This document shows, in pieces, positions 13,630 to 34,971 of a stretch of 64,000 bases of DNA. Within the stretch, counting starts at the first letter, position 1. Every line of letters starts with the position of its first letter. Made by a program: the position numbers and the translations under genes. The notes below the pieces were generated by a model, which saw nothing but the letters and a program-made list of their open reading frames with translations, did no database searches and was not told where the DNA came from. The stretch lies in NCBI GenBank assembly GCA_027459765.1, contig DAIDHD010000021.1:62001-126000 (forward strand), given 5' to 3'. Source of the DNA: Gammaproteobacteria bacterium. GTDB taxonomy: Bacteria; Pseudomonadota; Gammaproteobacteria; Steroidobacterales; Steroidobacteraceae.

Positions 13630-13719
13630 GACGACCAGCCTCCATTGAGCTCCCACGCACGAGCTTAGCGGACTGGGCTGGTCGAGGATATGTCGGCGCG
13701 CCGGCCGCGGCGGTTCTCG

Positions 13720-13725
13720 TATACT
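13720..13725 (+). promoter_or_regulatory. Putative -10 element before the retropepsin-TPR gene
   Basis: TATACT lies 26 bases before the ATG at 13751. A GGGAG ribosome-binding site sits 8 bases before that start. No good -35 is seen at the right distance, so the promoter call is tentative. Confidence 0.4.
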
Positions 13726-13750
13726 CGGGTCGGCTGAGGGAGATTCGTAC

Positions 13751-15700
13751 ATGAACGACACAGGGAGATCGTGGCGCCGGTCCGGCGCCGCGCGGGTGCT
13801 GCTGGGCGCGATCGTGTCCGGCGCGGCGACGATGGCAACGGCCGGAGACTGCAAGTTCTCGCGCCTGGCCGAGATTCCGATCACGATGAACGGAACGCGC
13901 CCGCTCATCGACACCCGGATCGACGGCCGCGAAGCGAGCTTCCTCATCGACAGTGGCGCGTTCTACAGCGTCATCAGCCGCGCGACGGCCGACCAATACG
14001 CATTGCACCTTCGTCCGGCGCCGACGGGCATGTACATGATCGGGCTCGGGGGGCGGGTCGAACTCCAGATCGCCACGGTCAAGGACTTCTCGCTGGCCGG
14101 CATTCCCGTGCGTAATGTGGAGTTCCTGGTGGGCGGCAGCGAGGTGGGTTCGGGGGCCGCCGGCTTGATCGGCCAGAACCTGCTGTCGCACTTCGACGTC
14201 GAGTACGATCTTGCCCACGGCGCCCTGCGCCTGTTTCGGGCCGAGAGCTGCAGCAAGCGCATGCTCGCCTACTGGGTCGCACCGGGGCAGTCGTACTCGA
14301 CCATGTCCATCGAGTGGCCGACGCCGCGGCAGCCGCACACCGTGGGCGTCGGCTATCTGAACGGAACCCGAATCGATATCACATTCGACACGGGCGCGGC
14401 CGTCTCTCTGCTATCGCGGCACGCGGCCGCGCGGGCGGGCCTGCGGCCGGACTCGCCGGGGGTCGTGGATGCCGGGTACATGCACGGTCTCGGCAACGCG
14501 ATGGAAAAAACCTACGTCGGCACGTTCGACAGCTTCAAGGTCGGCGACGACGAGGAGATCCAGCACGCCCGGCTGCGCTTCATCGACAGCGATCTGCCGG
14601 TTGGCGACATGCTGCTGGGGGCGGACTTCTTCCTCTCGCACCGGATCATGGTCGCGAACAGCCAGCACCGGCTGTACGTGACCTACAACGGCGGTCCGGT
14701 ATTCGACCTGCGGACACGCCCCGCGTCGGCACCCCCCGTGACGACCTCGTCGGAGACTCCCGCCGTGGCCCCGGCGCAGACCGCTGCCGCGGCTGCGCCG
14801 CCCGCCGCCGCGCCGGCTGCGACCAGCGATGGCGCTGGCGGCGAGCGCGCGGCCGGCGATACCCTCGATGCGGCGGGATTCGCGCGCCGCGGCGTCGCCG
14901 AATCGGCGCGCAACGATCTGGCCGCCGCCATCGCCGATCTGACGCGCGCATGCGAACTCGACGCGGCCGTGGCCGAATACCGCTATCAGCGCGGCGTCGC
15001 ATATTGGAAGAGTCGCGATCCCGCCCGCGCCAAGGCGGATTTCGACCGCGCACTCGAGTTGCGTGCCGATTACCTTCCGGCGCTGATCGCGCGCGCGCAG
15101 CTGGCGCTCGGCCGCGGTGATCGGCAGGCCGCCGCACGGGATCTGGCGGCCGCCGAGGCCGCGGCGCCGCGCCAGGCCGATCAGCGACTGGCGCTCGCCG
15201 AATTGGATCTGCGTGCCGACCGTGCCGCGGCGGCGGTGGCCGATCTCGATGACTGGATACCCGAGCACCGCGTCGACAGCCGCCGGGGCGGCGCCCTGCT
15301 GTGGCGCTGCGTGGCGCGCGCGCAGGCGGGGTCGGCGCTCGATGGAGCGATCGACGATTGTGGGGGCATCATTAAGCACTCGCCCGCGGGCTCGCCCGCC
15401 CAGCGTGCGGCATTACAGTCGCGCGGCCTCGTGCGTCTGCGCCAGGGTCGGTACGCGGACGCGCTCGAGGACTACGACCACGCCTTGAAGAACGACACCG
15501 ACCCGTCCGCGTGGGCGTTGTACGGGCGCGGGGTGGCGGAGCTGCGTACCGGCAAGCCCGACGCCGGCCGCGCCGACATCTCCGCCGCGCAAAAGCGTTG
15601 GCCTGAGGTCGCCGCACGCTTCCAGGAGATGGGCCTCGTCCCCGAGGGGCTGGCGCCCGCCGACCCGGACACGCAGGCGGCCGATCCCCAGGCGCACTAG
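13751..15700 (+). CDS. Exported double retropepsin-like aspartic protease with C-terminal TPR domain
   Basis: A 649-residue protein with a signal peptide (about 1-32). Two retropepsin-like halves follow: D67-S68-G69 in FLIDSGAF (about 38-165) and D213-T214-G215 in TFDTGAAV (about 180-310). Each half ends with the second conserved element of the fold (GLIGQNLLSHFDVEYDL and MLLGADFFLSHRIMV). Retropepsins normally work as homodimers, one Asp per chain; two halves in one chain could form an intramolecular pseudo-dimer. After an Ala/Pro linker (about 325-360), residues 370-640 are tetratricopeptide-like repeats. The substrate is unknown. It is followed by a paralogue without TPRs. Confidence 0.85.
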   Translation: MNDTGRSWRRSGAARVLLGAIVSGAATMATAGDCKFSRLAEIPITMNGTRPLIDTRIDGREASFLIDSGAFYSVISRATADQYALHLRPAPTGMYMIGLGGRVELQIATVKDFSLAGIPVRNVEFLVGGSEVGSGAAGLIGQNLLSHFDVEYDLAHGALRLFRAESCSKRMLAYWVAPGQSYSTMSIEWPTPRQPHTVGVGYLNGTRIDITFDTGAAVSLLSRHAAARAGLRPDSPGVVDAGYMHGLGNAMEKTYVGTFDSFKVGDDEEIQHARLRFIDSDLPVGDMLLGADFFLSHRIMVANSQHRLYVTYNGGPVFDLRTRPASAPPVTTSSETPAVAPAQTAAAAAPPAAAPAATSDGAGGERAAGDTLDAAGFARRGVAESARNDLAAAIADLTRACELDAAVAEYRYQRGVAYWKSRDPARAKADFDRALELRADYLPALIARAQLALGRGDRQAAARDLAAAEAAAPRQADQRLALAELDLRADRAAAAVADLDDWIPEHRVDSRRGGALLWRCVARAQAGSALDGAIDDCGGIIKHSPAGSPAQRAALQSRGLVRLRQGRYADALEDYDHALKNDTDPSAWALYGRGVAELRTGKPDAGRADISAAQKRWPEVAARFQEMGLVPEGLAPADPDTQAADPQAH

Positions 15701-18240: not shown

Positions 18241-19674
18241 ATGAGCGACATCAAGACTCAAGAGACCTACAACGACACCGTGGTGCGGCAGTTCGCCATC
18301 ATGACGGTGGTCTGGGGCATCGTCGGCATGGCCGTCGGCGTGCTCTGCGCCGCACAGCTGTACTGGCCGGCGCTGAACTTCGACATCCCGTGGCTGACCT
18401 ACAGTCGCATCCGGCCGCTGCACACCAACGCGGTCATCTTCGCCTTCGGCGGCTGCGCGCTGATCGGCACCTCGTTCCACGTGGCGCAGCGCACCTGCCA
18501 CGTCAGGCTCTATTCCGACAGGCTCGCCGCCTTCGTCTTCTGGGGCTGGCAGGTGGTGATCCTCGCGGCGGCCGTGTCGCTGCCGCTCGGCATGACGCAG
18601 GGCAAGGAGTACGCCGAACTCGAGTGGCCGATCGACCTGCTGATCACGGTGGTGTGGGTCGCCTACGCCGTGGTCTTCTTCGGCACGCTCGCCGTGCGGC
18701 GGGTGCGGCACATCTACGTCGCGAACTGGTTCTACGGCGCCTTCATCGTCACCATCGCCGTGCTGCACATCTTCAACAATCTCGCCATCCCGGTGAGTTT
18801 CACCAAGTCCTACGTGATCTATTCGGGCGTGGTCGACGCGATGATGCAGTGGTGGTACGGGCACAACGCGGTGGGCTTCTTCCTGACGGCCGGATTCCTC
18901 GGAATGATGTACTACTTCGTACCGAAGCAGGCGCAGCGACCGATCTATTCCTACCGCCTGTCGGTGGTGCACTTCTGGGCGCTGATCTCGGTGTACATGT
19001 GGGCGGGCCCCCACCACCTGCACTACACGTCGCTGCCCGACTGGGTGCAGTCCATCGGCATGGCCTTCTCGATCCTGCTCCTCGCGCCCTCCTGGGGCGG
19101 CATGATCAACGGAATCATGACCCTGTCGGGCGCGTGGCACAAACTGCGCACCGATCCGATCCTCAAGTTCATGATCACCTCGCTCTCGTTCTACGGCATG
19201 TCGACGTTCGAGGGCCCGATGATGTCCATCAAGACCGTGAACGCGCTCTCCCACTACACCGACTGGGGAATCGCGCACGTGCACTCCGGCGCGCTCGGCT
19301 GGGTGGCCATGATGACCATCGGCTCGATGTATTACCTGATCCCTCGCCTCTACAACCGCGCCGAGATGTACAGCGTCAGGCTGATCGACGTGCACTTCTG
19401 GACCTCCACCATCGGCGTGGTGCTGTACATCGCCTCGATGTGGTCGGCGGGGGTGATGCAGGGGCTCATGTGGCGTGCGTTCAACGCCGACGGCACCCTC
19501 ACCTACAGCTTCGTCGAGGGCGTCAAGGCGACCTACCCGTTCTATCTGGTGCGCTTCGCGGGCGGCACGTTGTTCCTCGTGGGCATGCTGATCATGGCCT
19601 ACAACGTCTGGATGACCGTGCGCGACGAGAAACCCGCGCCGGTGCGTGTGATGCCGGCGGCGGCGGGAGTCTGA
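18241..19674 (+). CDS. ccoN: cbb3-type cytochrome c oxidase subunit I
   Basis: A 477-residue catalytic subunit of the high-affinity cbb3 terminal oxidase (heme b, heme b3-CuB), inner membrane, twelve helices. Metal-ligand histidines are visible in [10 protein letters not shown] (low-spin heme), [12 protein letters not shown] (CuB ligand helix), GPHHLHYT (CuB pair) and HVHSGALGW (heme ligands near residue 345). Length is normal. It reduces O2 to water at micro-oxic concentrations using electrons from CcoO and CcoP. It is the first gene of an operon running through ccoO, Q, P, G, a short fixH-like gene, I and S. No FNR-type site is recognisable upstream. Confidence 0.98.
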
Positions 19675-19678
19675 GGTC

Positions 19679-20287
19679 ATGAGTCACGAAACGGTCGAGA
19701 AGCGCGCCGGACTGCTCACGGTGCTCATCGTGGCGGTCATCAGCGTCGGCGGTCTCATCGAGATCGTGCCGCTCGCCGCGAGCGCCGCCAAGTCCCAGGG
19801 CGGGATCGCGATCACGCCGCGCACGGCCCTGCAACAGGCGGGATTCGACATCTACGTGCGCGAGGGCTGCTACGTCTGCCACTCACAGCAGATCCGCCCG
19901 TTCCGCAGCGAGACCGAGCGCTACGGACCCTACTCGGTGGCCGCCGAGTCGCAGTACGACCACCCGTTCGAGTTCGGCTCGAAGCGCACCGGCCCGGATC
20001 TCGCGCGCGTCGGCGGGCGCTACAGCGACGATTGGCACAGGGTGCACCTGCACAACCCGCGCGACGTGGTGCCGGAGTCGAACATGCCCGGCTACCCCTG
20101 GCTCGCCACGGCGTCGCTCGACGGCGAGCTCATGCAGCGCAAGCTGCGGGTGCTGCGCTGGCTCGGCACGCCGTACAGCGATGCAGACATCGCCGGTGCG
20201 CCCGCGGCGGTCGCCGGCAAGACCGAGCTCGACGCGCTGATCGCCTACCTGCAGTCGCTCGGGCTGGCGCGGCCGCGCGGCTCGTGA
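19679..20287 (+). CDS. ccoO: cbb3-type cytochrome c oxidase subunit II
   Basis: A 202-residue monoheme c subunit anchored by one N-terminal helix (about 11-35). The heme c site is C64-Y-V-C67-H68 ([13 protein letters not shown]). The segment [22 protein letters not shown] is typical of CcoO, and a methionine axial ligand is likely in NMPGYPW. It relays electrons from CcoP to CcoN. It follows ccoN with a four-base gap. Length is near the usual 200-240. Confidence 0.98.
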
Positions 20288-20321
20288 TCTCGAGGAGTAT
20301 CGCCGTGATGGAGTATCTGCC

Positions 20322-20507
20322 GTGAATGCCTTGTGGTTGAACGTCCTGCGCGACACGGTCACCGTGGCGCTGTTCGCGCTCTTCGTGGCGCTCGTCCTCG
20401 ACACCTGGCGACCGCGTCGGCGCAAGGATCTGGACGCCGCCGCCGCGCTCGTCTTCGACGCCGAGGACGAGCGCGGCGCAGGCTCCGCCGGGGAGCGGAC
20501 CCGATGA
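20322..20507 (+). CDS. ccoQ: cbb3 oxidase small subunit CcoQ
   Basis: A 61-residue protein with one membrane helix (about 8-27: VTVALFALFVALVL) and an Arg-rich then acidic cytosolic tail, as in CcoQ/FixQ. The family stabilises the cbb3 complex. The start is GTG, preceded by a GGAG site 8 bases upstream. Its TGA overlaps the ccoP ATG. Position between ccoO and ccoP is diagnostic; sequence conservation in this family is low. Confidence 0.9.
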   Translation: MNALWLNVLRDTVTVALFALFVALVLDTWRPRRRKDLDAAAALVFDAEDERGAGSAGERTR

Positions 20508-21421
20508 TGACCCCGGGCTTGAGCGTGATCATCGCCATCGTGTCGATCCTGAACGTGGTGGGTTGCGGCTGGCTGATCTGGTGGACCGCCCGCCGGCGTC
20601 CCGACGAGGTGTCGCAGGGCGAGGTCATCGACCACGTGTGGGACGGCGACCTGCGCGAGCGCAACAACCCGATGCCGCGCTGGTGGCTGATCCTGTTCTT
20701 CGCCTCCATCGGCTTCTGCCTGCTGTACTTCGCTCTCTACCCCGCGCTCGGCACCTTCGGCAATCTGCTGCACTGGAGCAAGGCCTCCCAGTACGAGGCC
20801 GAGATGACCGCGGCGCGGCGTGAATACGCTCCCGTCTACGCGGCGTTCGCAGGCCGCAGCGTCGAGGATCTGTCCAAGGACCCGCGGGCGCTCGCGCTCG
20901 GCCACAGCCTGTTCGCGAACAACTGCGTGCAGTGCCACGGGTCGGACGCGCGCGGCGCACGCGGCTTCCCCAACCTCACCGATCAGGACTGGCTCTACGG
21001 GGGCACGCCGGACCGGATCGTCGAGACCATCACCAATGGCCGTGAGGGCGTCATGCCTGCGCTCGGCGAAGTGCTCGGCCCGCAGGGAGTCACCGAGGTG
21101 GTGGCGTACGTGCGTTCGCTGAGCGGCGCGCAAGCCGCGCCGGCCCTGATCGAGGCGGGACGCGCCCGCTTCGTCCTCTGCGCCGCCTGCCACGGGGCGG
21201 ATGCCAAGGGAAATCAGGCGATCGGCGCCCCAAACCTGTCCGACGACATCTGGTTGTACGGCGGTTCGGAGGCCACCGTGCGCCAGACGGTGACCTACGG
21301 TCGGCACGGCCAGATGCCGAGCCACCGCTGGCTGGGTGAGGACCGGATCCGTCTGCTCGCGGCGTACGTCTACAGTCTGTCGCACGGGGGTGGCACGCCC
21401 GCGGTCGCCGGCACGCCGTGA
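20504..21421 (+). CDS. ccoP: cbb3-type cytochrome c oxidase subunit III (diheme)
   Basis: A 305-residue diheme cytochrome c subunit. Two membrane helices (about 5-28 and 60-80) are joined by the conserved VWDGDLRERNNPMPRWW loop. Two heme c sites follow: C141-V-Q-C144-H145 and C226-A-A-C229-H230, each with the downstream WLYGG repeat. It accepts electrons from periplasmic cytochromes and passes them to CcoO. The two-helix form is typical of proteobacteria with the long CcoP N-terminus. The start was chosen at the first of two adjacent ATGs because it overlaps the ccoQ stop. Confidence 0.98.
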   Translation: MMTPGLSVIIAIVSILNVVGCGWLIWWTARRRPDEVSQGEVIDHVWDGDLRERNNPMPRWWLILFFASIGFCLLYFALYPALGTFGNLLHWSKASQYEAEMTAARREYAPVYAAFAGRSVEDLSKDPRALALGHSLFANNCVQCHGSDARGARGFPNLTDQDWLYGGTPDRIVETITNGREGVMPALGEVLGPQGVTEVVAYVRSLSGAQAAPALIEAGRARFVLCAACHGADAKGNQAIGAPNLSDDIWLYGGSEATVRQTVTYGRHGQMPSHRWLGEDRIRLLAAYVYSLSHGGGTPAVAGTP

Positions 21422-21434
21422 ACGAGGGCGTATC

Positions 21435-21710
21435 GTGAGCCAGTCGGTCCGCATCCACGCCGGCGTGGTGCTCTGGTCGTCGTTCCTCGCCGGTGCGGTC
21501 GCGAGCGTGGTGTTCTTCGCCGCGGTCGATCCGGCGCTGCTGCGCGACGCGGGTCCGCGGGTGTTCGACGGACTCGACCGCGAAGCGGGGTACGCGCTCG
21601 GCTTCCTGTTTCTGTGGGCGGTGGGTGCCGTGGCGAGCGCGCTCGCCGTGTTCCTGGTGCGCACCGCGCGTGCGGAGAGCGGCGGGAACGCGTCCGGGGA
21701 CGGGCCGTGA
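21435..21710 (+). CDS. Small two-helix membrane protein in the cco operon
   Basis: A 91-residue hypothetical protein with two hydrophobic segments (about 7-28 and 51-73), joined by an acidic/Arg loop. It lies between ccoP (13 bases upstream) and ccoG, overlapping the ccoG GTG start by four bases, so it is certainly in the operon. I do not recognise the family. It has no Cys, and no His except near residue 7, so it is unlikely to bind heme. A role in cbb3 assembly or stability is inferred from position only. Confidence 0.75.
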   Translation: MSQSVRIHAGVVLWSSFLAGAVASVVFFAAVDPALLRDAGPRVFDGLDREAGYALGFLFLWAVGAVASALAVFLVRTARAESGGNASGDGP

Positions 21711-23125
21711 AGGCCGGGGAACCGCTCGCGCATGCCGCGGATTCGGCGGCCGAGCCGATGTACGCGGCGGCCGTCAAGATCTACCCGCGCGAGGTGAGCG
21801 GACGCTTCGCGCGCCTGCGCAACGTCGCGGTGGTGGTGCTGCTGGGGCTGTACTACTCGGTGGCGTGGCTGACGTGGAACGGCCGCCAGGCGCTGCTGTT
21901 CGACCTGCCGGCACGCAAGTTCTACGTCTTCGGGCTGACGCTCTGGCCGCAGGACTTCTGGTACATGGCGCTGCTGATGATCATCGCGGCGCTGTCGCTG
22001 TTCTTCTTCACCGCGCTCGCCGGGCGCGTCTTCTGCGGCTACGCGTGCCCGCAGACCGTGTGGACCGAGGCCTTCCTCTGGATCGAGCGGCTGACCGAGG
22101 GGCCGCGACAGCGACGGATGCGCCTCGACGCGGGACCGTGGACGCTCGAGAAGCTGTTGCGCAAGGGTGGCAAGCAGCTGCTCTGGCTCGCGTTCGCGCT
22201 GTACACGGGTTTCACCTTCGTCGGCTACTTCATGCCGATCCGCTCGATCACCAGCGCGGCGCTCGGCGGCACACTGGGGCCGTGGGCCACGTTCTGGATC
22301 GGTCTGTACTCGCTCGCCACGTACGGCAACGCCGGCTACCTGCGCGAGCAGGTCTGCAAGTACATGTGTCCGTACGCGCGCTTCCAGAGCGCCATGTTCG
22401 ACAAGGACACGCTGGTGATCGCCTACGACACCGGCCGCGGCGAGCCTCGTGGCGCGCGCCGCCGCGGCACGGACGCGCACGCCGCGGGACTCGGCGATTG
22501 CATCGACTGCACCCTCTGCGTGCAGGTGTGCCCGACCGGCATCGACATCCGCAAGGGCCTGCAGTACGAGTGCATCGCCTGCGCGGCGTGCATCGACGCT
22601 TGCGACGACGTGATGGACAAGATGCGCGCGCCGCGCGGCTTGATCCGCTACACCTCCGAGAACGCGGTGAGCGGCCGTTCGCTGCCGCGCGTGCGCGGGC
22701 GACTGCTCGTGTACGGCGGACTGCTCGGGGCGGCCGCCACGGCCATCGTGGTCTCGCTCGCCACGCGCACGCCGCTGCTGCTCGACGTGATCCGGGATCG
22801 CAACGCCCTGTACCGCGAGGTGCGCGGCGACCGCATCGAGAACGCCTATTCGGTGAAGGTGATCAACGAGGACGACCGCGCGCACCGCTACCTCATCCAG
22901 GCGGAAGGCTTCGATGGCCTGCAGCTGGCCGCCCCGGCCGCGCCGGTCGAGGTGGCCGCGGAGTCCGTGGCGACCGTGCCGGTGCGCCTGCAGGCGCCGA
23001 GCGAGCGCGCGGCCGGCGTGCACCCGATCCGCCTGCGCGTCGTCGCCCTCGATGGCGCCGACTTCGAACGCGTCGAGAAGACCCGCTTCATAGGTCCGGT
23101 CGAGGAGGAGCACGCCCATGACTGA
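21707..23125 (+). CDS. ccoG: cbb3 oxidase assembly protein, iron-sulfur copper reductase CcoG
   Basis: A 472-residue membrane iron-sulfur protein (FixG/CcoG/RdxA). Several helices are followed by two [4Fe-4S] motifs: CIDCTLCVQVCP and CIACAACIDACD. FCGYACPQTVWTE supplies the conserved cysteine pair linked to copper handling. The C-terminal 110 residues form an Ig-like periplasmic domain. CcoG is known to reduce Cu(II) for delivery to the cbb3 active site. The GTG start overlaps the previous stop. The protein ends with the short fixH-like start inside its last codons. Confidence 0.96.
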   Translation: MKAGEPLAHAADSAAEPMYAAAVKIYPREVSGRFARLRNVAVVVLLGLYYSVAWLTWNGRQALLFDLPARKFYVFGLTLWPQDFWYMALLMIIAALSLFFFTALAGRVFCGYACPQTVWTEAFLWIERLTEGPRQRRMRLDAGPWTLEKLLRKGGKQLLWLAFALYTGFTFVGYFMPIRSITSAALGGTLGPWATFWIGLYSLATYGNAGYLREQVCKYMCPYARFQSAMFDKDTLVIAYDTGRGEPRGARRRGTDAHAAGLGDCIDCTLCVQVCPTGIDIRKGLQYECIACAACIDACDDVMDKMRAPRGLIRYTSENAVSGRSLPRVRGRLLVYGGLLGAAATAIVVSLATRTPLLLDVIRDRNALYREVRGDRIENAYSVKVINEDDRAHRYLIQAEGFDGLQLAAPAAPVEVAAESVATVPVRLQAPSERAAGVHPIRLRVVALDGADFERVEKTRFIGPVEEEHAHD

Positions 23126-23288
23126 GTCACGCCGCGCCGGGGAGTCGGCCGCGCCCTGGTACCGCCACCTCTGGCCGTGGATAGTCATCGGCCTGGTCGG
23201 CAGCGCGGTGGTCGGCAGTCTCACGAGCGCGTATCTCGCCGTACACACGGACGACGTCGTGCTCGAGCACGCCGATGCCTCCAACTGA
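23118..23288 (+). CDS. Very short FixH/CcoH-like membrane protein
   Basis: A 56-residue protein consisting of the FixH-type N-terminus (APWYRHLWPWIVIGLVG, about 12-28) and a single membrane helix to about residue 42, followed by 14 residues ending at a stop. Known FixH proteins are about 150 residues and continue with a periplasmic domain; that part is absent here. The ATG lies 8 bases inside ccoG and the 3' end runs 14 bases into ccoI. Position ccoG-fixH-ccoI matches the canonical order. It may be a natural minimal CcoH-like form that supports cbb3 assembly through the helix alone. Confidence 0.8.
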   Translation: MTESRRAGESAAPWYRHLWPWIVIGLVGSAVVGSLTSAYLAVHTDDVVLEHADASN

Positions 23289-25749
23289 GACCCCGGTCTG
23301 CTTCCACTGCGGCTCGGCTCTGCCGGCGGGTGCCACCGTGATGGCCACGCTGGAGGGCGAGCCGCGCGAGTTCTGTTGCGCCGGTTGCGAGACCGCGGCG
23401 CGCTTCATCCTCGCCCAGGGGCTGGGCGGCTATTACGCCTTTCGCGCGCCGTCCGCGCCTGCGCCCGGGCGTGCGCGTGACTGGTCGGCCTTCGATCGCG
23501 CCGAGGCCCGGCGCCGTTACACCCATCTGCGCGCCGACGGGCGCAGCGAGGTCAGCCTGCGGGTGGACGGAATGCACTGCGCGGCCTGTGCGTGGCTGAT
23601 CGAGCGCGGCCTGGAACGTCTGCCGGGCGCGCAGGCGGCCCACGTCGACGTCACCGGCGCCCGTGTGGAGCTCGCGTACGACGCCGACCGGCTGCCGCTC
23701 AGCCGCGTGCTCGCCACGCTCGAGCAACTCGGCTTTCAGCCGCGACCGCTCGCATTCGGGAACGCCGACACGGGCGAGGACGCGCAGCGGCGCGCGGCGC
23801 TACGCCGGCTCGGAATCGCAGGCATCGGCATGATGCAGGTGATGACCTACGCGGGTTCGCTGTACGCGGGCGCCTGGCACGGCATGTCGCCGGCGCTCGA
23901 GGCGCTGTTCCGCTGGGTGAGCCTGCTGGTGGCGACGCCGGTGGTCACCTACGCCGCCGCGCCCTTCTTCCTCGGTGCCTGGCGCAGCCTGCGCGCCGGC
24001 ACGCTCGGCATGGACGTGCCGGTCGCACTCTCGATCGCCGCCGCCTACGCCGCCAGCCTGTGGGCGACCGTGACCGGCACGGGCACGGTGTACTTCGACT
24101 CGGTGGTCATGTTCACCTTCTTTCTCACGCTCGGCCGCTTCGTCGAGCAGTCGGTGCGCCAGCGTGCGGGCGAACGTCAGGAGGCCGTGGCCCGCCTGTT
24201 GCCGGAGGCGGCGCTGCGCCTGTTGCCGGACGGCGGCGGCGAACGGGTGCTGCCCGAGGAGTTGGCGGTCGGCGATCTGATCCGCGTGCGTCCCGGCGAG
24301 CGCGCGCCCGCGGACGGCGAAGTGGTGGAGGGCGGCAGTGAATTCGACGAGTCGTTGCTCACCGGCGAGTCCGCGCCGCGCGTCAAGGGCGCCGGCGCGA
24401 CGGTGGCCGCAGGCACGTTGAATCTGCGCAACGCGCTCGACCTGCGCGTAACGCGCTCCGGCCAGGATACGACGCTCGCGGCCGCGGCCCGCCTGCTGGC
24501 GCGCGCACGCGCCGAGCGTCCTGGCGTGGCGGCGACCGCGGATGCGGTGGCGACGTGGTTCGTGGGGGGCGTGCTGCTGATCGCAGCCGCCGTCGGCGTG
24601 TACTGGAGCCTGGTCGATACGCCGCGGGCGTTCCCTGCCGTGCTCGCCGTGCTGGTGGTCACCTGTCCGTGCGCGTTGTCGCTGGCGACGCCGGCGGCGC
24701 TCGCCGCCGCCGCCGACCGGCTCGCGCACGCGGGAGTCTGGGTCGTGCGTGGGCGCGCCGTCGAGACGCTGGCGCGCACCGATGCGGCGGTGTTCGACAA
24801 GACCGGCACCCTGACACGCGGCACACCGAGGCTGGTGCGCGTCGAATTGCTGGCCGCCGACGCGCCGCCGGCCGACGCGCCCGACGCCGAAAGGCAGAGG
24901 CAGCACTGGCTCGCCATCGCGGCCGGCATGGAGCGCCGCTCCGAGCATCCGATGGCGCGGGCCTTCGCGGAGGCCGCCGCGCGCGACGACGTCGCACACG
25001 TGCGCAACGTCGCCGGCGCCGGCATCGCCGCCACCGTGGGCGGCCGCTCCTATCGCCTGGGCCGTGCGGAATTCGCCGCGCCGGGCGCATTCTGGCGCCC
25101 GCGTGTGTCGGACGACGAGTCCTTGGTGGTGCTCGGTGACGCCACCGGGCCGCTGGCCGCGTTCGTGCTCACCGACGCGGTTCGGGCCGACGCCGCCGCG
25201 ACGCTGCGCGCGCTCGCACGGCGCGGGCTGCGGGTGGAGATTGCGAGCGGTGACCGCACCGAAGTGGTGGCGGCGGTGGCGCAGCGCCTCGGCGTGGACA
25301 GCGCCGCCGGTGACCTGTCGCCGGCCGAAAAGCTCGCCACCGTTCGGCGCCTGCAGCGCCAAGGCCGCGTCGTCACCGTGATCGGCGACGGAGTGAACGA
25401 CGCCCCCGTGCTCGCGGGCGCGGACGTCTCGGTGGCCGTCGGCGGCGGCACCGACCTGGCGAAGGTCAGCGCCGACCTGGTGCTGCTCGGCGATCGTCTG
25501 GAGCCGCTGGCCGACGCCGTCGACGTGGCGCGACGGACGATGCGGATCGTGCGCGAGAACCTCGCCTGGGCCGTGCTCTACAACGCCGTCGCCGTGCCGC
25601 TCGCCGCGAGCGGTCACCTGGCGCCGTGGCTCGCCGCGCTCGGCATGTCCGCGAGTTCGCTGCTGGTCGTCTGCAACGCGTTGCGCCTGCGCGCGCGGCC
25701 GGCGGCGGCGTTCGCGTCGGGGTGTACGACGGCGCCGGCGGTGGCATGA
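23275..25749 (+). CDS. ccoI: Copper-exporting P1B-type ATPase for cbb3 assembly
   Basis: An 824-residue P1B ATPase (FixI/CcoI/CopA2 type). The N-terminal metal-binding region has C9/C12 and FCCAGC (C34, C35, C38); the HMA domain has GMHCAAC (C102/C105). The membrane copper path is C464-P-C466, and the phosphorylated Asp is D508 (DKTGTLT). The SEHPMARAF (HP motif) and GDGVNDAPVLAGADVSVA hinge segments are intact. It moves copper to the periplasm for CuB of CcoN. The reading start overlaps the preceding short gene by 14 bases; the stop overlaps ccoS. Confidence 0.96.
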   Translation: MPPTETPVCFHCGSALPAGATVMATLEGEPREFCCAGCETAARFILAQGLGGYYAFRAPSAPAPGRARDWSAFDRAEARRRYTHLRADGRSEVSLRVDGMHCAACAWLIERGLERLPGAQAAHVDVTGARVELAYDADRLPLSRVLATLEQLGFQPRPLAFGNADTGEDAQRRAALRRLGIAGIGMMQVMTYAGSLYAGAWHGMSPALEALFRWVSLLVATPVVTYAAAPFFLGAWRSLRAGTLGMDVPVALSIAAAYAASLWATVTGTGTVYFDSVVMFTFFLTLGRFVEQSVRQRAGERQEAVARLLPEAALRLLPDGGGERVLPEELAVGDLIRVRPGERAPADGEVVEGGSEFDESLLTGESAPRVKGAGATVAAGTLNLRNALDLRVTRSGQDTTLAAAARLLARARAERPGVAATADAVATWFVGGVLLIAAAVGVYWSLVDTPRAFPAVLAVLVVTCPCALSLATPAALAAAADRLAHAGVWVVRGRAVETLARTDAAVFDKTGTLTRGTPRLVRVELLAADAPPADAPDAERQRQHWLAIAAGMERRSEHPMARAFAEAAARDDVAHVRNVAGAGIAATVGGRSYRLGRAEFAAPGAFWRPRVSDDESLVVLGDATGPLAAFVLTDAVRADAAATLRALARRGLRVEIASGDRTEVVAAVAQRLGVDSAAGDLSPAEKLATVRRLQRQGRVVTVIGDGVNDAPVLAGADVSVAVGGGTDLAKVSADLVLLGDRLEPLADAVDVARRTMRIVRENLAWAVLYNAVAVPLAASGHLAPWLAALGMSASSLLVVCNALRLRARPAAAFASGCTTAPAVA

Positions 25750-25895
25750 ACATTCTGTTCCTGCTCATCCCGCTCGGTCTCATGGTGCTGGCGGCCATGG
25801 TGGCCGCCTTCCTGTGGGCCGTTCGTCGCGGCCAGTTCGAGGATATGGAACAAGCCGCCGTGCGCATCCTCCTGGACGAGGACCGCGCGCCGTGA
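25746..25895 (+). CDS. ccoS: cbb3 oxidase maturation protein CcoS
   Basis: A 49-residue single-helix protein (NILFLLIPLGLMVLAAMVAAFLWAV) with the conserved cytosolic GQFEDMEQAA-RIL-DED pattern of CcoS/FixS. It is needed for cofactor insertion into cbb3 oxidase. ATGA overlap with ccoI and GTGA overlap with the next gene place it firmly in the operon. Confidence 0.96.
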   Translation: MNILFLLIPLGLMVLAAMVAAFLWAVRRGQFEDMEQAAVRILLDEDRAP

Positions 25896-26656
25896 GCCTG
25901 TGGTCGCTGCTCGCCGCGTTCGCGGCGGGGGCGCTCGGCAGCGGCCACTGTGTGCTGATGTGCGGCGGCGTAGCCACCGCCATCGGCGCGGCCCGGCGCG
26001 GCGGCGACGGGGCAGGAGCTGCGGCCGGCGGACCGGGCACGATGCTCCTCGTGCACGCCGGACGCCTCGGCGGCTACGCCGCGTTCGGCGCGCTCGCCGG
26101 CCTTCTCGGGCTCGCGCCGACGCTGCTGGCCGGGCCCCGCAGCGCGCCGTTCGTGCACGCCGTCGCGGGCATGCGTCTGGCCGCCGCCTTGCTCGTGGTC
26201 GGCATCGGCGCACGGTTGGTGGCGGCCCGCTCCGGTGGCCCGCGCTGGCTGCGCGCGCCGGAACGGTGGGGTGCCGCGCTCTGGCGCCGACTGGCGCCGC
26301 GCGCCGGCGCCTGGGTGCCCGCGAGTCCGATTGCGCGCACGCTCTGTCTCGGCGCGCTCTGGGCGTGCATGCCCTGCGGGCTCGTGTACACCGTGTATCT
26401 GGCGGCGGCGGTTTCCGGCGGTCCGGCCGCGGGCGCGGCGCTCGCCGCGAGCTTCGGGATGGGCACCTTGCCGGCGTTGCTGGGCCTCGGCTGGTTCGGC
26501 CGGCGCGCCGGCACTCCGGGCCCGGCGGCGGCGCGGGCCGTGGGTGCGATCCTGATCGCCGGCGGCGCGTGGACCGCAGTCGCCCCGCTTGCGGTGCTTG
26601 CCGGCGGTGCGCCTTTCTCCGCGGGGGTTGCGGCGTACTGCCGCGCCGTCTTTTAG
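25892..26656 (+). CDS. TauE/SafE (UreH/DsbD-like) family membrane protein
   Basis: A 254-residue membrane protein with about six helices. Two cysteine-bearing motifs stand out: GHCVLMCGG (about 17-25) and ACMPCGLVY (about 150-158). These resemble the paired cysteines of DsbD/CcdA-like thiol transporters and of the UreH/SafE proteins found next to ccoS in many gammaproteobacteria. It is usually annotated as a sulfite exporter. The context instead suggests a role in metal or thiol supply for cbb3 assembly, which is inference. The GTG start overlaps the ccoS stop. The last four bases overlap the convergent BLUF gene. Confidence 0.85.
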   Translation: MSLWSLLAAFAAGALGSGHCVLMCGGVATAIGAARRGGDGAGAAAGGPGTMLLVHAGRLGGYAAFGALAGLLGLAPTLLAGPRSAPFVHAVAGMRLAAALLVVGIGARLVAARSGGPRWLRAPERWGAALWRRLAPRAGAWVPASPIARTLCLGALWACMPCGLVYTVYLAAAVSGGPAAGAALAASFGMGTLPALLGLGWFGRRAGTPGPAAARAVGAILIAGGAWTAVAPLAVLAGGAPFSAGVAAYCRAVF

Positions 26657-27969
26657 TGGCGCCCGGGTGCCGGCGGGTGCGTCAGCTCGCGGGAGCGTTC
26701 GGCCGCACGCGCATAACGCTGACGCTGCAGACCGGCGTCCAGCAGCCGCTTCGCGGTCGGCACGATGTCCAACACCGACATGCAGGCCGCGTCCGCGCCC
26801 ACTTCGCGCCACGCCCCCGGCCGTTCGAAGAACACGCGTCCGGCGACGATCACGGCGAGCGCGGGATTGCAGGAGGCCGCCTGGATGGTGCCCACCAGCG
26901 AGCGCAGTTGTTCGATCGAGCGCTGGCGGCTCGATGCCGCGCTCGAGGCGAGGTTGACCACGTCGAACCAACGGTCGCGGACCAGCGCCGCGAGCCCGCG
27001 TGCGCCGGCCGGGAACTCGCAGCTCACGTCCCAGCCGTCGCGCCAGAACAGCTCCGAGATCATGGCCGCGCCGAGGCCGTGCGGGTCGCCCGGCGTGGGC
27101 GCGACGAGCACCGAGCGCGCCGTGCGCGACACGTCGGCCGGGTCGCGGGGAAATGTCGAGCTCACGCGCCGTACTTCGGTCTGCAGGCGCACGAGGCTCA
27201 GCGTCACGTGTATGTCGGCGATGTCGTCGGCGTCGCCACGCGTGCCGAGACAGCGAGCGGCTGGCTCGAACACCTCGCGATACAGTGCCTCGAGGCTCGC
27301 CCCGGCGCCGATGAGCCGGTCCACGTAGGCCGAGATCGCCGCGCCGTCCACGGCCTGCAGCAGGTCCGCGAGTTCGTCGCCGGCCGTGGCGTCGGCGTGC
27401 CAGATGCGCGCCGACGACGTCAGCGGCGGCGCGAGCGCGAGTTGCGGCGGCAGGATCAGGGCGCCGCGGCGCGGATCCCCCGCGTACAGCCGGGCGAGCC
27501 GCGGCAGCACGTTGTTCGAGAACACGTCGTCCCAGGCGCCGTCCGCGAGCATCGCCGGGCGCGATTGCAGCCGGCGCAGCACCTCCGTGGGCCTGGTCGC
27601 CGCCGCCAGATGTGAATCGATGGGGCCCCGCGGCCGCCGCGCAAGGCTCATGTCCCAGCGGGAAAAGAACCGCTGCGGCACCACCTCACGGCGCAGCACC
27701 TCGACTTGCTGATGGCGCGGGTCGCGGCGAATCGAGTCCCACACCCGGTTCAGGCCCATTTCAGGCCCTTCGATCCATTGGAAGAAACGGCCCTGGTCGT
27801 AGATGAGCAGGCCGGTGACCCCTTCGCGGCGATTGCGCGACTGGGCGGCACGCAGGAGCTGGTCCATGTCCTCGGGACCTGGCTCGCGGCTCGCGAGGCT
27901 CCGATAGGCGAGCACCGATACGGGCCCGGAATAATCGCGCGATTGCGCTCGAGGCTCGGCCGCCGACAT
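26653..27969 (-). CDS. AppA-like BLUF photoreceptor with C-terminal SCHIC/B12-binding-like domain
   Basis: A 438-residue protein. Residues 15-110 are a BLUF (FAD blue-light sensor) domain with all key residues: Y22, N46, Q64, W105 and M107. These are offset by one from AppA of Rhodobacter sphaeroides (Y21, N45, Q63, W104, M106), and short blocks such as YRSLA, FFQW and EG are shared. Residues 205-270 form a helical bundle, then a Rossmann-like domain begins at about 285 with D295-x-H297-x-x-G300, the cobalamin-binding DxHxxG pattern. In AppA this region is the SCHIC domain that binds heme. The protein probably integrates blue light with heme, redox or cobalamin state. The ATG was chosen over an upstream GTG (28005) because the numbering then matches AppA. 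Confidence 0.86.
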   Translation of the reverse strand: MSAAEPRAQSRDYSGPVSVLAYRSLASREPGPEDMDQLLRAAQSRNRREGVTGLLIYDQGRFFQWIEGPEMGLNRVWDSIRRDPRHQQVEVLRREVVPQRFFSRWDMSLARRPRGPIDSHLAAATRPTEVLRRLQSRPAMLADGAWDDVFSNNVLPRLARLYAGDPRRGALILPPQLALAPPLTSSARIWHADATAGDELADLLQAVDGAAISAYVDRLIGAGASLEALYREVFEPAARCLGTRGDADDIADIHVTLSLVRLQTEVRRVSSTFPRDPADVSRTARSVLVAPTPGDPHGLGAAMISELFWRDGWDVSCEFPAGARGLAALVRDRWFDVVNLASSAASSRQRSIEQLRSLVGTIQAASCNPALAVIVAGRVFFERPGAWREVGADAACMSVLDIVPTAKRLLDAGLQRQRYARAAERSRELTHPPAPGRH

Positions 27970-28245: not shown

Positions 28246-28638
28246 CTAGAGATCCGAGACTCCGAACCGGGCCAGGCCCTGGTTGATGCCGGGCGGATCG
28301 AGCACGCTCAAATCGAGCGGCAGCGGCGTACCGATCCAGTCCGCGTCGCGCGTGTGGTCCGCGAGGTCGTCCAGAGTCAGAGGATGCACGAGCACCGTCA
28401 GGCCGGCGTTGGCCAGGCGCGGCCGCACGACCGCCAACAGGGCCTGCCGAAAGTGCAATTCGAACTGCGGCAGCGGGTGCGGACCCAGCGGGGCATCGCG
28501 CAGTTCCCCGACGAACGCCAGCGGCCAGCTTCCACTGGCGCGCGCCGCGAGCAGTTCCTCGCGCAAGCGGACCGCAAGGTCTCGCGAACGCGCATCGTAG
28601 TAGACGTGGGCGTGGTACGGATCGTCGGGCGCGGCCAT
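28246..28638 (-). CDS. DOPA 4,5-dioxygenase family protein
   Basis: A 130-residue protein of the small DOPA-dioxygenase family. Conserved elements are YHAHVYYD (about 8-15) with two His, LGPHPLPQFELHF (mid-protein), VLVHPLTLDDLADHT and GTPLPLDL. Members use a metal to cleave catechol rings extradiol, but most bacterial copies have no tested substrate. The ATG at 28638 has a GGAG site 7 bases upstream, better than the upstream ATG at 28674. It lies 37 bases after apbE on the same strand, so the two are probably one transcript under the divergent Fur-type promoter region. Confidence 0.85.
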   Translation of the reverse strand: MAAPDDPYHAHVYYDARSRDLAVRLREELLAARASGSWPLAFVGELRDAPLGPHPLPQFELHFRQALLAVVRPRLANAGLTVLVHPLTLDDLADHTRDADWIGTPLPLDLSVLDPPGINQGLARFGVSDL

Positions 28639-28675
28639 CGGAGCACTCCAGGCGGACTGTGACAGCGGCCGCATC

Positions 28676-29452
28676 TTAGCGCACGCGCGTCGCCGCGAAC
28701 TGCGTCAGCAGGCTTGCGGCAAAGCAGGCATCGACGCACAGCACGCACTTGGTCAGCGCATCGGCGGTGGCCGCGTCGGCAGCGATCACGCAGGCTTCGC
28801 CGGCGATCGGCCGCAGCGGTTCACCGCGACGGTAGTAGCCGCGGTGTTCGGCGGGCGCGTCGAGCGCGCGCGTGTCGCTGGACGCGACCGCGGCCGCGCG
28901 CAGTTCGAGGGGCTGCTCGGTGCCGCCGAGGCGCACGACGATGGTGCGCGGCGCGTCGCCGAACACCGCAAGGTCCCCGCCCGCATTGACGAGGCCTGCG
29001 CTGCAGCCGGCCGTGCGCAGCGCCCGCAGCGCGAGGTCCACGGCGAATCCCTTGCCGATGCCGCCGAAATCGATGCGCAGCGGCGAGCGCTTGTACACCG
29101 TGCAGCCGCCGTCCGCGGCGGCTGCAAAGACGACCTCGGTGAGTCCGCCCGGTTCGTCCGGCAGGCACGGATCGAAGGCCCCGCCGGAAGCTTCGTGCAG
29201 CCGCCGGCATAGCGGCCACAGCGAGGCGAACTCCTCGCCGAGCGCCAAGGCCACGCCCGGAGGGGCGGCATTCAAGGCGGCCAGTTCACTGCCCGGGCGC
29301 GTCGGATGCAGGCGGGTGTCGATGCGCGCGATCGCGGCCAGTGCGGCGCGGATGCCGGTATCCACCGTCCACATGTCGGGCGCGCAGGCCTCCACGGCGA
29401 CCAGCGTACCGAGTGCGACGCTGAGGCGAGTCGCCTGGGCGGGGTATGGCAT
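28676..29452 (-). CDS. apbE: FAD:protein FMN transferase
   Basis: A 258-residue flavin transferase that attaches FMN from FAD covalently to a Thr in a (S/T)GAT motif of target proteins. The signature DFGGIGKGFAVD (about 133-144), VNAGGDLAVFG and the C-terminal ATADALTKC segment (ADA-T-type) are present. It lacks a clear lipoprotein or cleavable signal at the chosen ATG, although a hydrophobic N-terminus is absent in some cytosolic ApbE forms. The most likely substrate is the divergently encoded FMN-binding protein, which has SGAT. The promoter region is shared with that gene and carries a Fur-box-like palindrome. Confidence 0.94.
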   Translation of the reverse strand: MPYPAQATRLSVALGTLVAVEACAPDMWTVDTGIRAALAAIARIDTRLHPTRPGSELAALNAAPPGVALALGEEFASLWPLCRRLHEASGGAFDPCLPDEPGGLTEVVFAAAADGGCTVYKRSPLRIDFGGIGKGFAVDLALRALRTAGCSAGLVNAGGDLAVFGDAPRTIVVRLGGTEQPLELRAAAVASSDTRALDAPAEHRGYYRRGEPLRPIAGEACVIAADAATADALTKCVLCVDACFAASLLTQFAATRVR

Positions 29453-29475
29453 CGACACTTGCCTCGCAGCTAAAT

Positions 29476-29505
29476 TTGAACGAGAATGATTCGCATTCCT
29501 ATTGT
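29476..29505 (+). promoter_or_regulatory. Promoter with embedded Fur-box-like palindrome
   Basis: TTGAAC (29476-29481), an 18-base spacer and TATTGT (29500-29505) form a sigma-70-like promoter reading right. Within the spacer is the perfect inverted repeat GAATG-ATTCG-CATTC (29484-29498), close to Fur operators (core AATGAT...CATT). Fur-Fe binding here would block the promoter. The same site lies between the divergent apbE start (29452) and the FMN-binding gene (29528), so both could be iron-repressed. Binding itself is inferred. Confidence 0.75.
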
Positions 29506-29527
29506 ACATGACTTCGCGAGAACAGCC

Positions 29528-30100
29528 ATGTCCGCACCTGCCTGGCCCGCCGCCGTGATGTTCGCCGCGCTCGCGCCCGTCACGCCGGTGGTGTGTGCCG
29601 CGGACTATCTCTCGGTCGACGCGGCCCGCGCCGCGATCTTTCCGCAGGCGGACGCGTTCGAGGAGATCGCACTCGCTCTCGATCCCGCGCAGCGCGCGGC
29701 GCTGCTTGCGCGCGCCGGCCCGCAGCCGGTGCACGGGGTCATACGCGTGTTTCGCGCCACTCGCGCCGGTGTGCTGCTGGGACACGTGTTCATCGATGAA
29801 GTGATCGGGAGACAGAGCCTGATTGGCTATGCGCTGGGCATCGATGCGCAGGGGGCGATCGGCGAGCTTGCGATCATGGCCTACCGCGAGAGCCACGGCG
29901 GCGAGATCCGCAATGCCGCGTGGCGCGCGCAATTCGCTCATCGCAACGACCTCGCGCAGCTCGAGTTCCGCAAGGACATCAAGAACATCTCCGGCGCCAC
30001 ACTGTCCTGCGAGCACGTCACCCAGGGCGTGCGTTGGCTGCTGGCGCTGTGGCAGACGGCGTTCTCCGCGCACGCGGGCACACCCGCCGCGCGCGGCTGA
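29528..30100 (+). CDS. Periplasmic FMN-binding domain protein (flavinylated)
   Basis: A 190-residue protein with a signal peptide (about 1-22). An FMN-binding domain ends in KDIKNISGATLSC: S155-G156-A157-T158, where T158 is the predicted covalent FMN site added by ApbE. Such domains occur in NqrC, RnfG and periplasmic electron carriers. An ATG at 29486 lies inside the Fur-like palindrome and upstream of the -10, so it cannot be the start of a transcript from this promoter. It precedes a small His-rich membrane protein and diverges from apbE. An iron-regulated extracytoplasmic electron-transfer role, such as ferric reduction, is inferred. Confidence 0.88.
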   Translation: MSAPAWPAAVMFAALAPVTPVVCAADYLSVDAARAAIFPQADAFEEIALALDPAQRAALLARAGPQPVHGVIRVFRATRAGVLLGHVFIDEVIGRQSLIGYALGIDAQGAIGELAIMAYRESHGGEIRNAAWRAQFAHRNDLAQLEFRKDIKNISGATLSCEHVTQGVRWLLALWQTAFSAHAGTPAARG

Positions 30101-32788: not shown

Positions 32789-33091
32789 ATGCCAGAGCCA
32801 ACACCGTTCGCTGCCACCGAGTCCGCCACCGACCTCGCCCTCACCGATCTGCCGCTCGGCACGCCGGCACGGGTGCTCGGCCTGCGCATGGCCCACGCGG
32901 AGGCGCCCGCCGAGCTGCACAAGCGGCTGGCCGAACTCGGCTTCCTGCCGGGCGAAGCGGTGCGCGTCGTCGCGCGGGGCTTTCTTTCGCGCGAGCCGCT
33001 CGCGGTGCGCATCGGCACCGGGACCTTCGCGCTGCGACGCTTCGAGGCAGCCTGCGTTCGTGTGACCTTGGAGCCGGTGCTCGCGGGCTGA
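32789..33091 (+). CDS. feoA: Ferrous iron transport protein A
   Basis: A 100-residue protein with an SH3-like FeoA domain (about 17-95): LPLGTPARVLGL, KRLAELGFLPGEAVRVV, REPLAVRIGTGTFALRRFEA. FeoA is a cytosolic partner of the FeoB Fe(II) transporter. The N-terminal 15 residues are a short extension. It is preceded by a Fur-like site and followed by feoB after five bases. The ribosome-binding site is weak. Confidence 0.95.
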   Translation: MPEPTPFAATESATDLALTDLPLGTPARVLGLRMAHAEAPAELHKRLAELGFLPGEAVRVVARGFLSREPLAVRIGTGTFALRRFEAACVRVTLEPVLAG

Positions 33092-33096
33092 CGCGC

Positions 33097-34971
33097 ATGG
33101 AGACTTCCGCTACGGCACGGACTCCGCTGATCGCGTTGGTGGGCAATCCCAACTGCGGAAAGACGGCGCTGTTCAACGTGCTCACCGGCAGTCGCCAGAA
33201 GGTCGCGAATTACGCCGGGGTGACCGTGGAGCGCAAGGAGGGCAGCTTCGTCACGCCCGGCGGCCGCCGCCTGCGCGTGCTGGATCTACCGGGTGCGTAC
33301 AGCCTGGATCCCGTCACGCCCGACGAGCAGGTCACCGCCGACGTGCTGCTCGGCCGCCGTGCGGGCGAGGCGCCCCCGGACCTCGTCGTCTGCGTCACCG
33401 ATGCGTCGAATCTGCGCCAGAACCTGCGCCTGGTGCTCAGCTTGAAGCGCCTCGGCCTGCCGCTGGTGGTGGCGCTCAACATGGCCGACATCGCGCGCCG
33501 CAAGGGCATCCTGGTCGACGCGCAACGCCTGGCGCGCGAGCTCGGCGTGCCGGTGGTGGAGACCGTGGGGGTGAAGGCCTCCGGTGTGCGCGCGCTGGCA
33601 GAAGCACTCGACCGGATCTCGATACCGGAGTCGCGTCCGAACGCATCCTGGCAACCGCTGACGGCGGCCGAGGTCGCGCACGATCAGGCCGAGGTGCGCC
33701 GGCTGCTCGCCGCGGTCGACGGTGATCGCGCCGACGGCGTGACGTTGAGCGACCGCGTCGACGCGGTGGTGCTGCACCCGCTGCTCGGGCCGCTGATCCT
33801 CGCCACCATCCTGTTCCTGGTGTTCCAGGCCGTGTTCGCGTGGGCACAGTGGCCGATGGACGCGATCAAGAACGGCGTCGCCGCGCTGGCCGCGACGCTC
33901 GCGACCCATCTGCCGGCGAGCGCGTTCAAGGACCTGCTGGTCAACGGGGTCCTCGCCGGCCTCGGCAGCGTGCTGGTGTTCCTGCCGCAGATCCTGATCC
34001 TGTTCTTCTTCATCCTCCTGCTCGAGGACTCGGGCTACCTGCCGCGCGCCGCGTTCCTGCTCGACCGCATCATGGGCAGCGTCGGACTCTCCGGGCGGGC
34101 CTTCATCCCGCTGCTGTCCAGCTTCGCCTGCGCCATCCCCGGCATCATGGCCACGCGCACCATCCAGAATCCGCGCGACCGGCTCGCGACCATCATGATC
34201 GCGCCGCTCATGACCTGTTCGGCGCGCCTGCCGGTGTACGCTCTGATCATCGGCGCCTTCATTCCCGAGCGGCGGGTTTGGGGCGTGCTGGAGCTGCAGG
34301 GGCTGGTGCTGTTCGCGCTCTACGTCGCGGGAGTCGTGAGCGCGATGGGCGTCGCCTACGTGCTCAAGCGCGGCGGCGGTCGCGGCCGCTTCCAGGCGCT
34401 GTTGCTCGAGCTGCCCGCCTACCATTGGCCGAACCTGCGCAATCTCGCGCTCGGCCTGTGGCAGCGCGTGGAGATCTTCCTGACGCGAGTCGGCACCATC
34501 ATCCTCGCACTGATGGTGATTCTATGGGCCTTGAGTTCGTTCCCGGCGCCACCCGCGGGCGCCACCGGGCCCGCCATTCAGTACAGCATCGCAGGTCGAC
34601 TGGGCGCGGGGCTCGCGGTGCTTTTGGCGCCCGTCGGCTTCAACTGGCAAATCGCGGTCGCGCTGGTGCCGGGCCTTGCGGCCCGCGAAGTCGCCGTCGG
34701 CGCCCTCGGCACGGTGTATGCGCTGTCGGCGAGCGGCGCCGACGTGAGCGACGCCCTGACGCCCATCATCGCCCGGTCCTGGAGTCTCGCGACCGCCTTG
34801 TCGCTGCTCGCCTGGTACGTGTTCGCGCCGCAGTGTCTGTCGACGCTCGCCACCGTGCGCCGCGAGACCGGCAGCTGGCGCTATCCTCTGATCATGGCGG
34901 CCTACATGTTCGCACTGGCGTACGCAGGGTCCTGGATCACCTACCGCGTGGCGTCGGGGTTCGGCGCATGA
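33097..34971 (+). CDS. feoB: Ferrous iron transporter B
   Basis: A 624-residue Fe(II) transporter. The N-terminal G domain has GNPNCGKT (P-loop, G1), VTVE (G2 region), DLPG (G3) and NMAD (G4). A helical regulatory segment and about nine membrane helices follow (230-615), with the Gate motifs around FACAIPGIMATRTI and MTCSARLPVY. The cysteines in these segments are implicated in iron passage. It is shorter than E. coli FeoB (773) but similar to other FeoBs of about 610-650. Operon partners are feoA and a Cys-rich small protein. Confidence 0.98.
   Translation: METSATARTPLIALVGNPNCGKTALFNVLTGSRQKVANYAGVTVERKEGSFVTPGGRRLRVLDLPGAYSLDPVTPDEQVTADVLLGRRAGEAPPDLVVCVTDASNLRQNLRLVLSLKRLGLPLVVALNMADIARRKGILVDAQRLARELGVPVVETVGVKASGVRALAEALDRISIPESRPNASWQPLTAAEVAHDQAEVRRLLAAVDGDRADGVTLSDRVDAVVLHPLLGPLILATILFLVFQAVFAWAQWPMDAIKNGVAALAATLATHLPASAFKDLLVNGVLAGLGSVLVFLPQILILFFFILLLEDSGYLPRAAFLLDRIMGSVGLSGRAFIPLLSSFACAIPGIMATRTIQNPRDRLATIMIAPLMTCSARLPVYALIIGAFIPERRVWGVLELQGLVLFALYVAGVVSAMGVAYVLKRGGGRGRFQALLLELPAYHWPNLRNLALGLWQRVEIFLTRVGTIILALMVILWALSSFPAPPAGATGPAIQYSIAGRLGAGLAVLLAPVGFNWQIAVALVPGLAAREVAVGALGTVYALSASGADVSDALTPIIARSWSLATALSLLAWYVFAPQCLSTLATVRRETGSWRYPLIMAAYMFALAYAGSWITYRVASGFGA

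Follow-up and report, generated by a model that had tools for sequence, protein, structure and literature searches.

An AppA-type BLUF-SCHIC protein with a cobalamin-type ligand motif in a gammaproteobacterial genome that carries PpsR and photosynthesis genes

The window, by which we mean the whole 64,000-nucleotide stretch of gammaproteobacterial DNA that was analysed, encodes a protein in which a BLUF domain precedes a SCHIC domain, and its gene adjoins a set of cbb3 oxidase genes (Table 1). The plus-strand frame over the same interval is interrupted by a stop and the open reading frame is real on the minus strand. With the 450-aa form as query, Pfam places BLUF (cut-off 25) and AppA_SCHIC (32.8 bits, cut-off 28.6) above threshold, and leaves the B12-binding model (23.8 bits, cut-off 32.1) and AppA_4HB below it. 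Among solved proteins, AppA of R. sphaeroides gives the best full-length match, with residues 20-406 aligned to it (phmmer, 4hh1, E 6e-30). The AppA-like build proposed in the first-pass annotation is borne out. The key residues that it named, Y22, N46, Q64, W105, M107, D295, H297 and G300, are all at their stated positions, and the first four are invariant across the five fusion proteins considered below. We take the BLUF residues Y22, N46, Q64, W105 and M107 to be the counterparts of AppA Tyr21, Asn45, Gln63, Trp104 and Met106. The protein has four cysteines (240, 317, 367 and 396). Pfam matched no DNA-binding domain in it, MerR-type included, at E up to 0.1, and NCBIfam assigned it to no family. 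An AlphaFold model from a three-row alignment gave a mean pLDDT of 41.3 and a pTM of 0.26 and was left unused.

Table 1. Features of the sensor gene and the adjoining cbb3 genes, in window coordinates
Feature	Position	Strand	Remarks
BLUF-SCHIC (AppA-type) gene	26653..27969	-	438 aa from ATG; alternative start GTG at 28005 gives 450 aa
BLUF domain, residues 20-107	27649..27912	-	Pfam PF04940, 87.8 bits; with Y22, N46, Q64, W105, M107
Putative four-helix-bundle cap region, residues 194-269	27163..27390	-	PF21961, 15 bits (cut-off 27); AppA-aligned stretch, which in AppA faces PpsR
SCHIC / B12-fold Rossmann part, residues 280-406	26752..27132	-	PF21966 AppA_SCHIC above cut-off
D295-P-H297-G-L-G300, cobalamin-type DxHxxG	27070..27087	-	Register of AerR His145, read with the available part of PMC9144470
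ccoN, ccoO, ccoP of cbb3 oxidase	18241..21421	+	NCBIfam TIGR00780, TIGR00781, TIGR00782 above cut-off; context only
ccoG-like, ccoI-like ATPase, DsbD_2-family membrane protein	21614..26656	+	

The adjacency of the sensor gene to a cbb3 operon, as first described, is confirmed by the NCBIfam assignments of ccoN, ccoO and ccoP and by the ccoG-like and ccoI-like genes that follow them. The last open reading frame of this stretch (25814-26656) overlaps the sensor frame tail to tail by 4 bp; the cbb3 genes and the sensor gene are convergent, not co-transcribed. The accompanying proposal, that the sensor controls respiration, had adjacency as its sole support, and among the fusion loci inspected a cco gene stands beside the fusion gene only in the window's genome. 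At the fusion locus of the relative G001 no cco gene was recognised when the translated ORFs of some 10 kb to the left and right were read by eye; by such reading its neighbours include glycoside-hydrolase-like and GST-like ORFs. Nor did Pfam find a cco gene among 10 near-neighbour proteins of the other three fusion loci, where the scanned neighbours were NMT1-type and one without match (two in G165), SSF, CN_hydrolase, Iso_dh and one without match (four in G538), and AbgT-type, PIN_4, RPE65-type and one without match (four in G498). In view of these loci, control of the cbb3 operon inferred from adjacency was rejected as unsupported. A respiration regulator, steering the adjoining cbb3 operon by blue light and heme or B12 apart from PpsR, is very unlikely: the convergent orientation and the fusion loci in which no cco gene was recognised argue against it, and because no DNA-binding domain was matched a partner would be required, for which PpsR is at hand. 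In its favor are the direct contact with cbb3 assembly genes and an R. rubrum PpaA/AerR-like protein that, in the available part of PMC10734443, acts beyond photosynthesis genes. An FNR-type scan gave 12 matches with two or fewer mismatches against 3.7 expected, a count reached in 0 of 100 shuffles; its sole match near the ccoN start begins at the start codon, and nothing was drawn from the scan.

Adjoining the sensor gene at 28246-30100 are a DOPA 4,5-dioxygenase-family ORF, an ApbE-family ORF and a divergent ORF with an FMN_bind domain, possibly a flavinylated electron-transfer set. At 32789-34971, about 5 kb past the sensor gene, lies a FeoB gene (TIGR00437, 476.8 bits), and the translation of a small ORF ahead of it reads as FeoA-like.

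The sensor gene lies off the contig that carries ppsR. The first-pass annotation had seen no photosynthesis genes or ppsR in the window, which holds for the whole of the window's contig (no reaction-centre match, and no PpsR match above cut-off), and had supposed a likely non-phototroph and thus a new setting for such a sensor. However, the search of the genome for ppsR, bch and puf genes, which had been set beforehand as the refuting check, found them. The window's genome (G000; 3.34 Mb, 94.9% complete) carries on its contig C48 the reaction-centre L/M genes (pufL/M), PpsR (13240-14568; 493 bits, cut-off 275) and, immediately upstream of ppsR in the same orientation, an AerR-like gene whose best solved match is AerR 7te2. 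A scan of 10 proteins of this contig identified bchN, bchB, bchY, bchZ, bchP, pufL and crtI-family genes. The reaction-centre, PpsR and bch genes led us to reject the non-phototroph setting, and because of them the organism is a potential bacteriochlorophyll phototroph. Seven of 40 relatives have a reaction centre; among 23 sampled genomes of the genus, reaction-centre genes occur in four (G000, G001, G002, G004) and the fusion in two. A reaction centre and PpsR accompany the fusion in all five fusion genomes, but they are also present in five of five comparison genomes picked for AerR-like genes, so their presence is nothing peculiar to the fusion.

All six Q-linker residues listed in the available part of PMC9144470 as universally conserved and facing the AerR/SCHIC helix are found in the PpsR of the window's genome. 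Of 11 PpsR loci scanned, eight have the exact six-residue pattern, that of the window's genome among them, and it is missing from L005, L008 and L009, the last of which is a partial gene; the pattern does not tell AppA-type partners apart from AerR ones. On the SCHIC side, the docking residue Q112 is kept in all seven AppA-type rows of the alignment described below, T105 in five of them, window included, and S109 (as given in the available part of PMC9144470) is V in the window protein and S in three of the seven. Exact sites of the PpsR pattern TGT-N12-ACA number three in the window and three on C48, both at chance level, and none lies upstream of the sensor gene or ccoN in a scan that, at these counts, has no power; two one-mismatch sites upstream of the sensor gene are figures without a control. 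Near the crt genes on C48 there is also a cytochrome P450-like ORF (L109:4616-6001), which is below all NCBIfam cut-offs. In a further genome two PpsR-like genes lie within 4 kb of each other (G651:C1, 1405115-1406458 and 1410407-1411657), the second scoring 262.9 against a cut-off of 275.4 bits.

BLUF-SCHIC fusions are rare. Both domains are matched in one gene, at E up to 1e-3, in two of 60 relatives; the other surveys found the fusion in two of 369 genomes of the class (1e-20), four of 398 sampled genomes of the phylum (1e-12), one of 250 from the order of G165 (1e-18), two of 318 from the class of G538 (1e-30) and one of 196 from the window's order (1e-30). The surveys overlap and scored the best few candidates per genome; over all of them the fusion genomes number five (G000, G001, G165, G498 and G538). 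The fetched loci contain 84 SCHIC ORFs, 68 of them distinct and five of these with BLUF, according to a scripted check that covered the loci fetched before the surveys of the G538 class and the window's order and that fusions among weak matches could escape. Three fusion genomes belong to the window's class and two to a different one within the phylum, presumably the Alphaproteobacteria. G001, which we take as the metagenome-assembled genome "Gammaproteobacteria bacterium isolate bog_1200" (L039), has a fusion orthologue. In the plasmid collection 49 records matched, none with one place covering 80% of the query. Unfused neighbours also exist: an AerR-type SCHIC gene (2877703-2878455) and a short BLUF gene (2879247-2879552) are about 0.8 kb apart in L047 (G441:C1), and there is a similar pair in G558:C23 (379188-379829 and 378186-378470). 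These are possible split counterparts of the fusion.

The ligand site was read from an alignment of 70 SCHIC rows, the 68 distinct ORFs together with AppA 4heh and AerR 7te2, none dropped, at the columns named in the available part of PMC9144470. Seven rows are AppA-type, namely six fusions (R. sphaeroides AppA included) and a paralogue on contig C57 of the window's genome, and 63 are AerR-like. The motif histidine column (H145) is H in 69 of the 70 rows, that is in 63 of 63 AerR-like and six of seven AppA-type rows, and the window motif is therefore not a matter of chance; the sole exception is R. sphaeroides AppA, which has P in this column and H two columns earlier. D/ExHxxG is likewise present in every AppA-type row except R. 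sphaeroides AppA, and all five fusions found here, that of the window included, place the histidine at the B12 position, together with D/E and G. The cobalamin-type pattern noticed at first pass is thus in B12 register in the window protein and missing from AppA itself. A cobalamin riboswitch occurs in five of five fusion genomes but also in eight of 14 controls, and is a weak indication.

The rest of the site is different. The W94 column is W in 63 of 63 AerR-like rows versus four of seven AppA-type rows (window G, G001 a gap, AppA L), and the F101 column is F in 61 of 63 versus none of seven, with E in four, D in two, window included, and R in AppA. The stretch from the T189 to the G220 column is 30-32 residues long in all 63 AerR-like rows versus 35-36 in all seven AppA-type rows, and T189 is A in the window protein. 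The first G of the GG motif (219), kept in 60 of 63 AerR-like rows, is A in the window protein, D in G001, D in the C57 paralogue, R in G165 and G in G498, G538 and AppA. The window protein thus combines a lower-ligand motif of B12 type with an upper face and loop of AppA type.

These columns bear on two alternatives. The window protein might be an AppA differing in detail only, a BLUF and heme sensor whose H297 is a heme ligand slightly shifted in position and in which cobalamin plays no part; this is the heme branch of our best explanation and a serious candidate, though we put it short of even. The AppA-type long loop in all seven rows, the G and D in the cap columns and the A in the GG motif all fit such a protein, and PpaA/AerR proteins were reportedly described as heme-binding by Moskvin in 2010. 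The histidine tells another way, since the AppA heme ligand His284 precedes the B12 ligand position by two residues (PMC9144470, available part), whereas five fusions have H in B12 register with D/E and G; cobalamin binding, moreover, is reported for PpaA (Vermeulen and Bauer 2015, cited in the available part of PMC10890935). On the heme side, the longer loop of AppA is proposed in the available part of PMC9144470 to hinder cobalamin. The other alternative is a BLUF sensor with a cofactor-free SCHIC part that serves only as a dock for PpsR. The D/E-H-G triad, kept in all five fusions across two classes of the phylum, is hard to explain without a ligand and makes this unlikely, even if substitutions affect both caps, T189 and the first G of GG in the window protein and there is a precedent in R. 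rubrum HP1, a family member described in the available part of PMC10734443 as unlikely to bind cobalamin or heme and yet controlling photosynthesis.

In a SCHIC tree built without the loop columns, the six fusion rows and the C57 paralogue form one side of a branch with support of 92/94, which is below the tool's 95/80 mark, from a bootstrap that had not settled and with R. sphaeroides AppA as a very long branch. Without R. sphaeroides AppA the other six rows still form one side of a branch (SH-aLRT 89, quick tree). The C57 paralogue (L036, G000:C57:29389-30087; L106:9399-10154) groups with the window protein and G001 at 99/96, and this grouping suggests that it derives from the window's fusion gene and lacks BLUF. 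It is a stand-alone SCHIC protein of 252 aa that shares 49% identity with window-protein residues 186-419. It has the AppA-type loop, ExHxxG and W94 but no BLUF domain, and its neighbours read from their translations as an efflux-type outer membrane protein-like and a porin-like protein. In a BLUF tree of 25 rows from the fetched loci the fusions are not one clade (two changes), but a tree constrained to keep them together is not rejected (AU p 0.107), and a single fusion event is not decided. A second BLUF protein encoded in the window's genome, a short one (L001, G000:C50:26080-26358), groups with other short BLUF proteins next to the AppA BLUF.

We consider it probable that the window protein is an AppA-type antirepressor of PpsR in a gammaproteobacterium with a bacteriochlorophyll photosynthesis cluster, sensing light by a flavin and a tetrapyrrole at H297. 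What the sequence shows is the gene with its two domains and the motif and, in the same genome, photosynthesis genes and a PpsR that has the listed docking residues; we infer that the protein binds a flavin, a tetrapyrrole and PpsR, and in which direction it exerts control. The BLUF domain would bind FAD and sense blue light, the cap and the Rossmann part would hold the tetrapyrrole through H297, and the SCHIC part would bind at the Q-linker helix of PpsR. The strength of PpsR repression at the photosynthesis cluster would then depend both on light and on the tetrapyrrole or redox state, resulting in tuned derepression. Weighing against this reading are the SCHIC branch support short of the tool's mark, the BLUF tree without a fusion clade, V at the S109 column, the location of the gene off the ppsR contig and the lack of a C-terminal cysteine cluster. 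By our estimates cobalamin comes near an even chance, heme with H297 as ligand is a strong second choice, and the absence of both is improbable. The ligand motif speaks for B12, whereas the changed GG, the loop and the lack of a W94/F101 cap speak against a normal B12 pocket. The two-cofactor idea of the first-pass annotation survives as a testable possibility. A bolder version, which we find conceivable but rather doubtful, is a single-chain dual photoreceptor in which the BLUF flavin and a light-sensitive cobalamin both act on PpsR; on that view R. sphaeroides AppA would be a derived member, having gone from B12 to heme, and window-type proteins would be its cobalamin-bearing relatives.

AppA was called "specific from C. 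sphaeroides" in 2023 (PMC10734443), it was proposed that AppA was possibly born of a duplication of the AerR gene in R. sphaeroides (PMC6199135), and the gammaproteobacterium Congregibacter is described as having no appA, only BLUF genes, one of them near ppsR (PMC2654016), just as R. capsulatus and D. shibae are described as having no AppA (PMC10890935), each in the available part of the source. The literature searched, as represented by such partial texts, yielded no AppA other than that of R. sphaeroides and no BLUF-SCHIC protein whose ligand is of B12 type; an earlier description of either is possible. The AppA-type fusions described here span two classes, their SCHIC parts group with AppA at a support below the tool's mark, and the B12 ligand motif is present in all of these AppA-type proteins except R. 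sphaeroides AppA. The transition from a B12 domain to a heme sensor becomes a directly testable question with these proteins.

Known systems resemble the window protein to different degrees. CarH shares with it the concept of light sensing by a B12 fold (PMC9144470, available part), but the window protein has no matched DNA-binding domain. The AerR/PpaA proteins, B12-binding co-regulators of PpsR/CrtJ, share the D/ExHxxG lower-ligand histidine, G148, G220 and the fold family; they differ in having no BLUF domain, a shorter loop and the W94/F101 caps, whereas the window protein has BLUF and neither cap, and a separate AerR-like gene stands beside ppsR in the window's genome. LdaP of Dinoroseobacter shibae, which presumably has no SCHIC part, uses LOV where the window protein uses BLUF. 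It is, like the proposed function here, a flavin-based blue-light antirepressor of PpsR (PMC10890935, available part). The closest system is AppA of R. (Cereibacter) sphaeroides, which shares the succession of BLUF, a cap (putative in the window protein) and SCHIC within a single chain, every BLUF key residue, the longer loop, the lack of an F101 cap and a PpsR in the genome. AppA differs in having G-H-K-P-I-L, and using His284, where the window protein has DxHxxG, in having R rather than D at the F101 column, and in its C-terminal cysteine cluster, a Cys-rich tail in the available part of PMC4844311, that is missing in the window protein, which for its part comes from a gammaproteobacterium.
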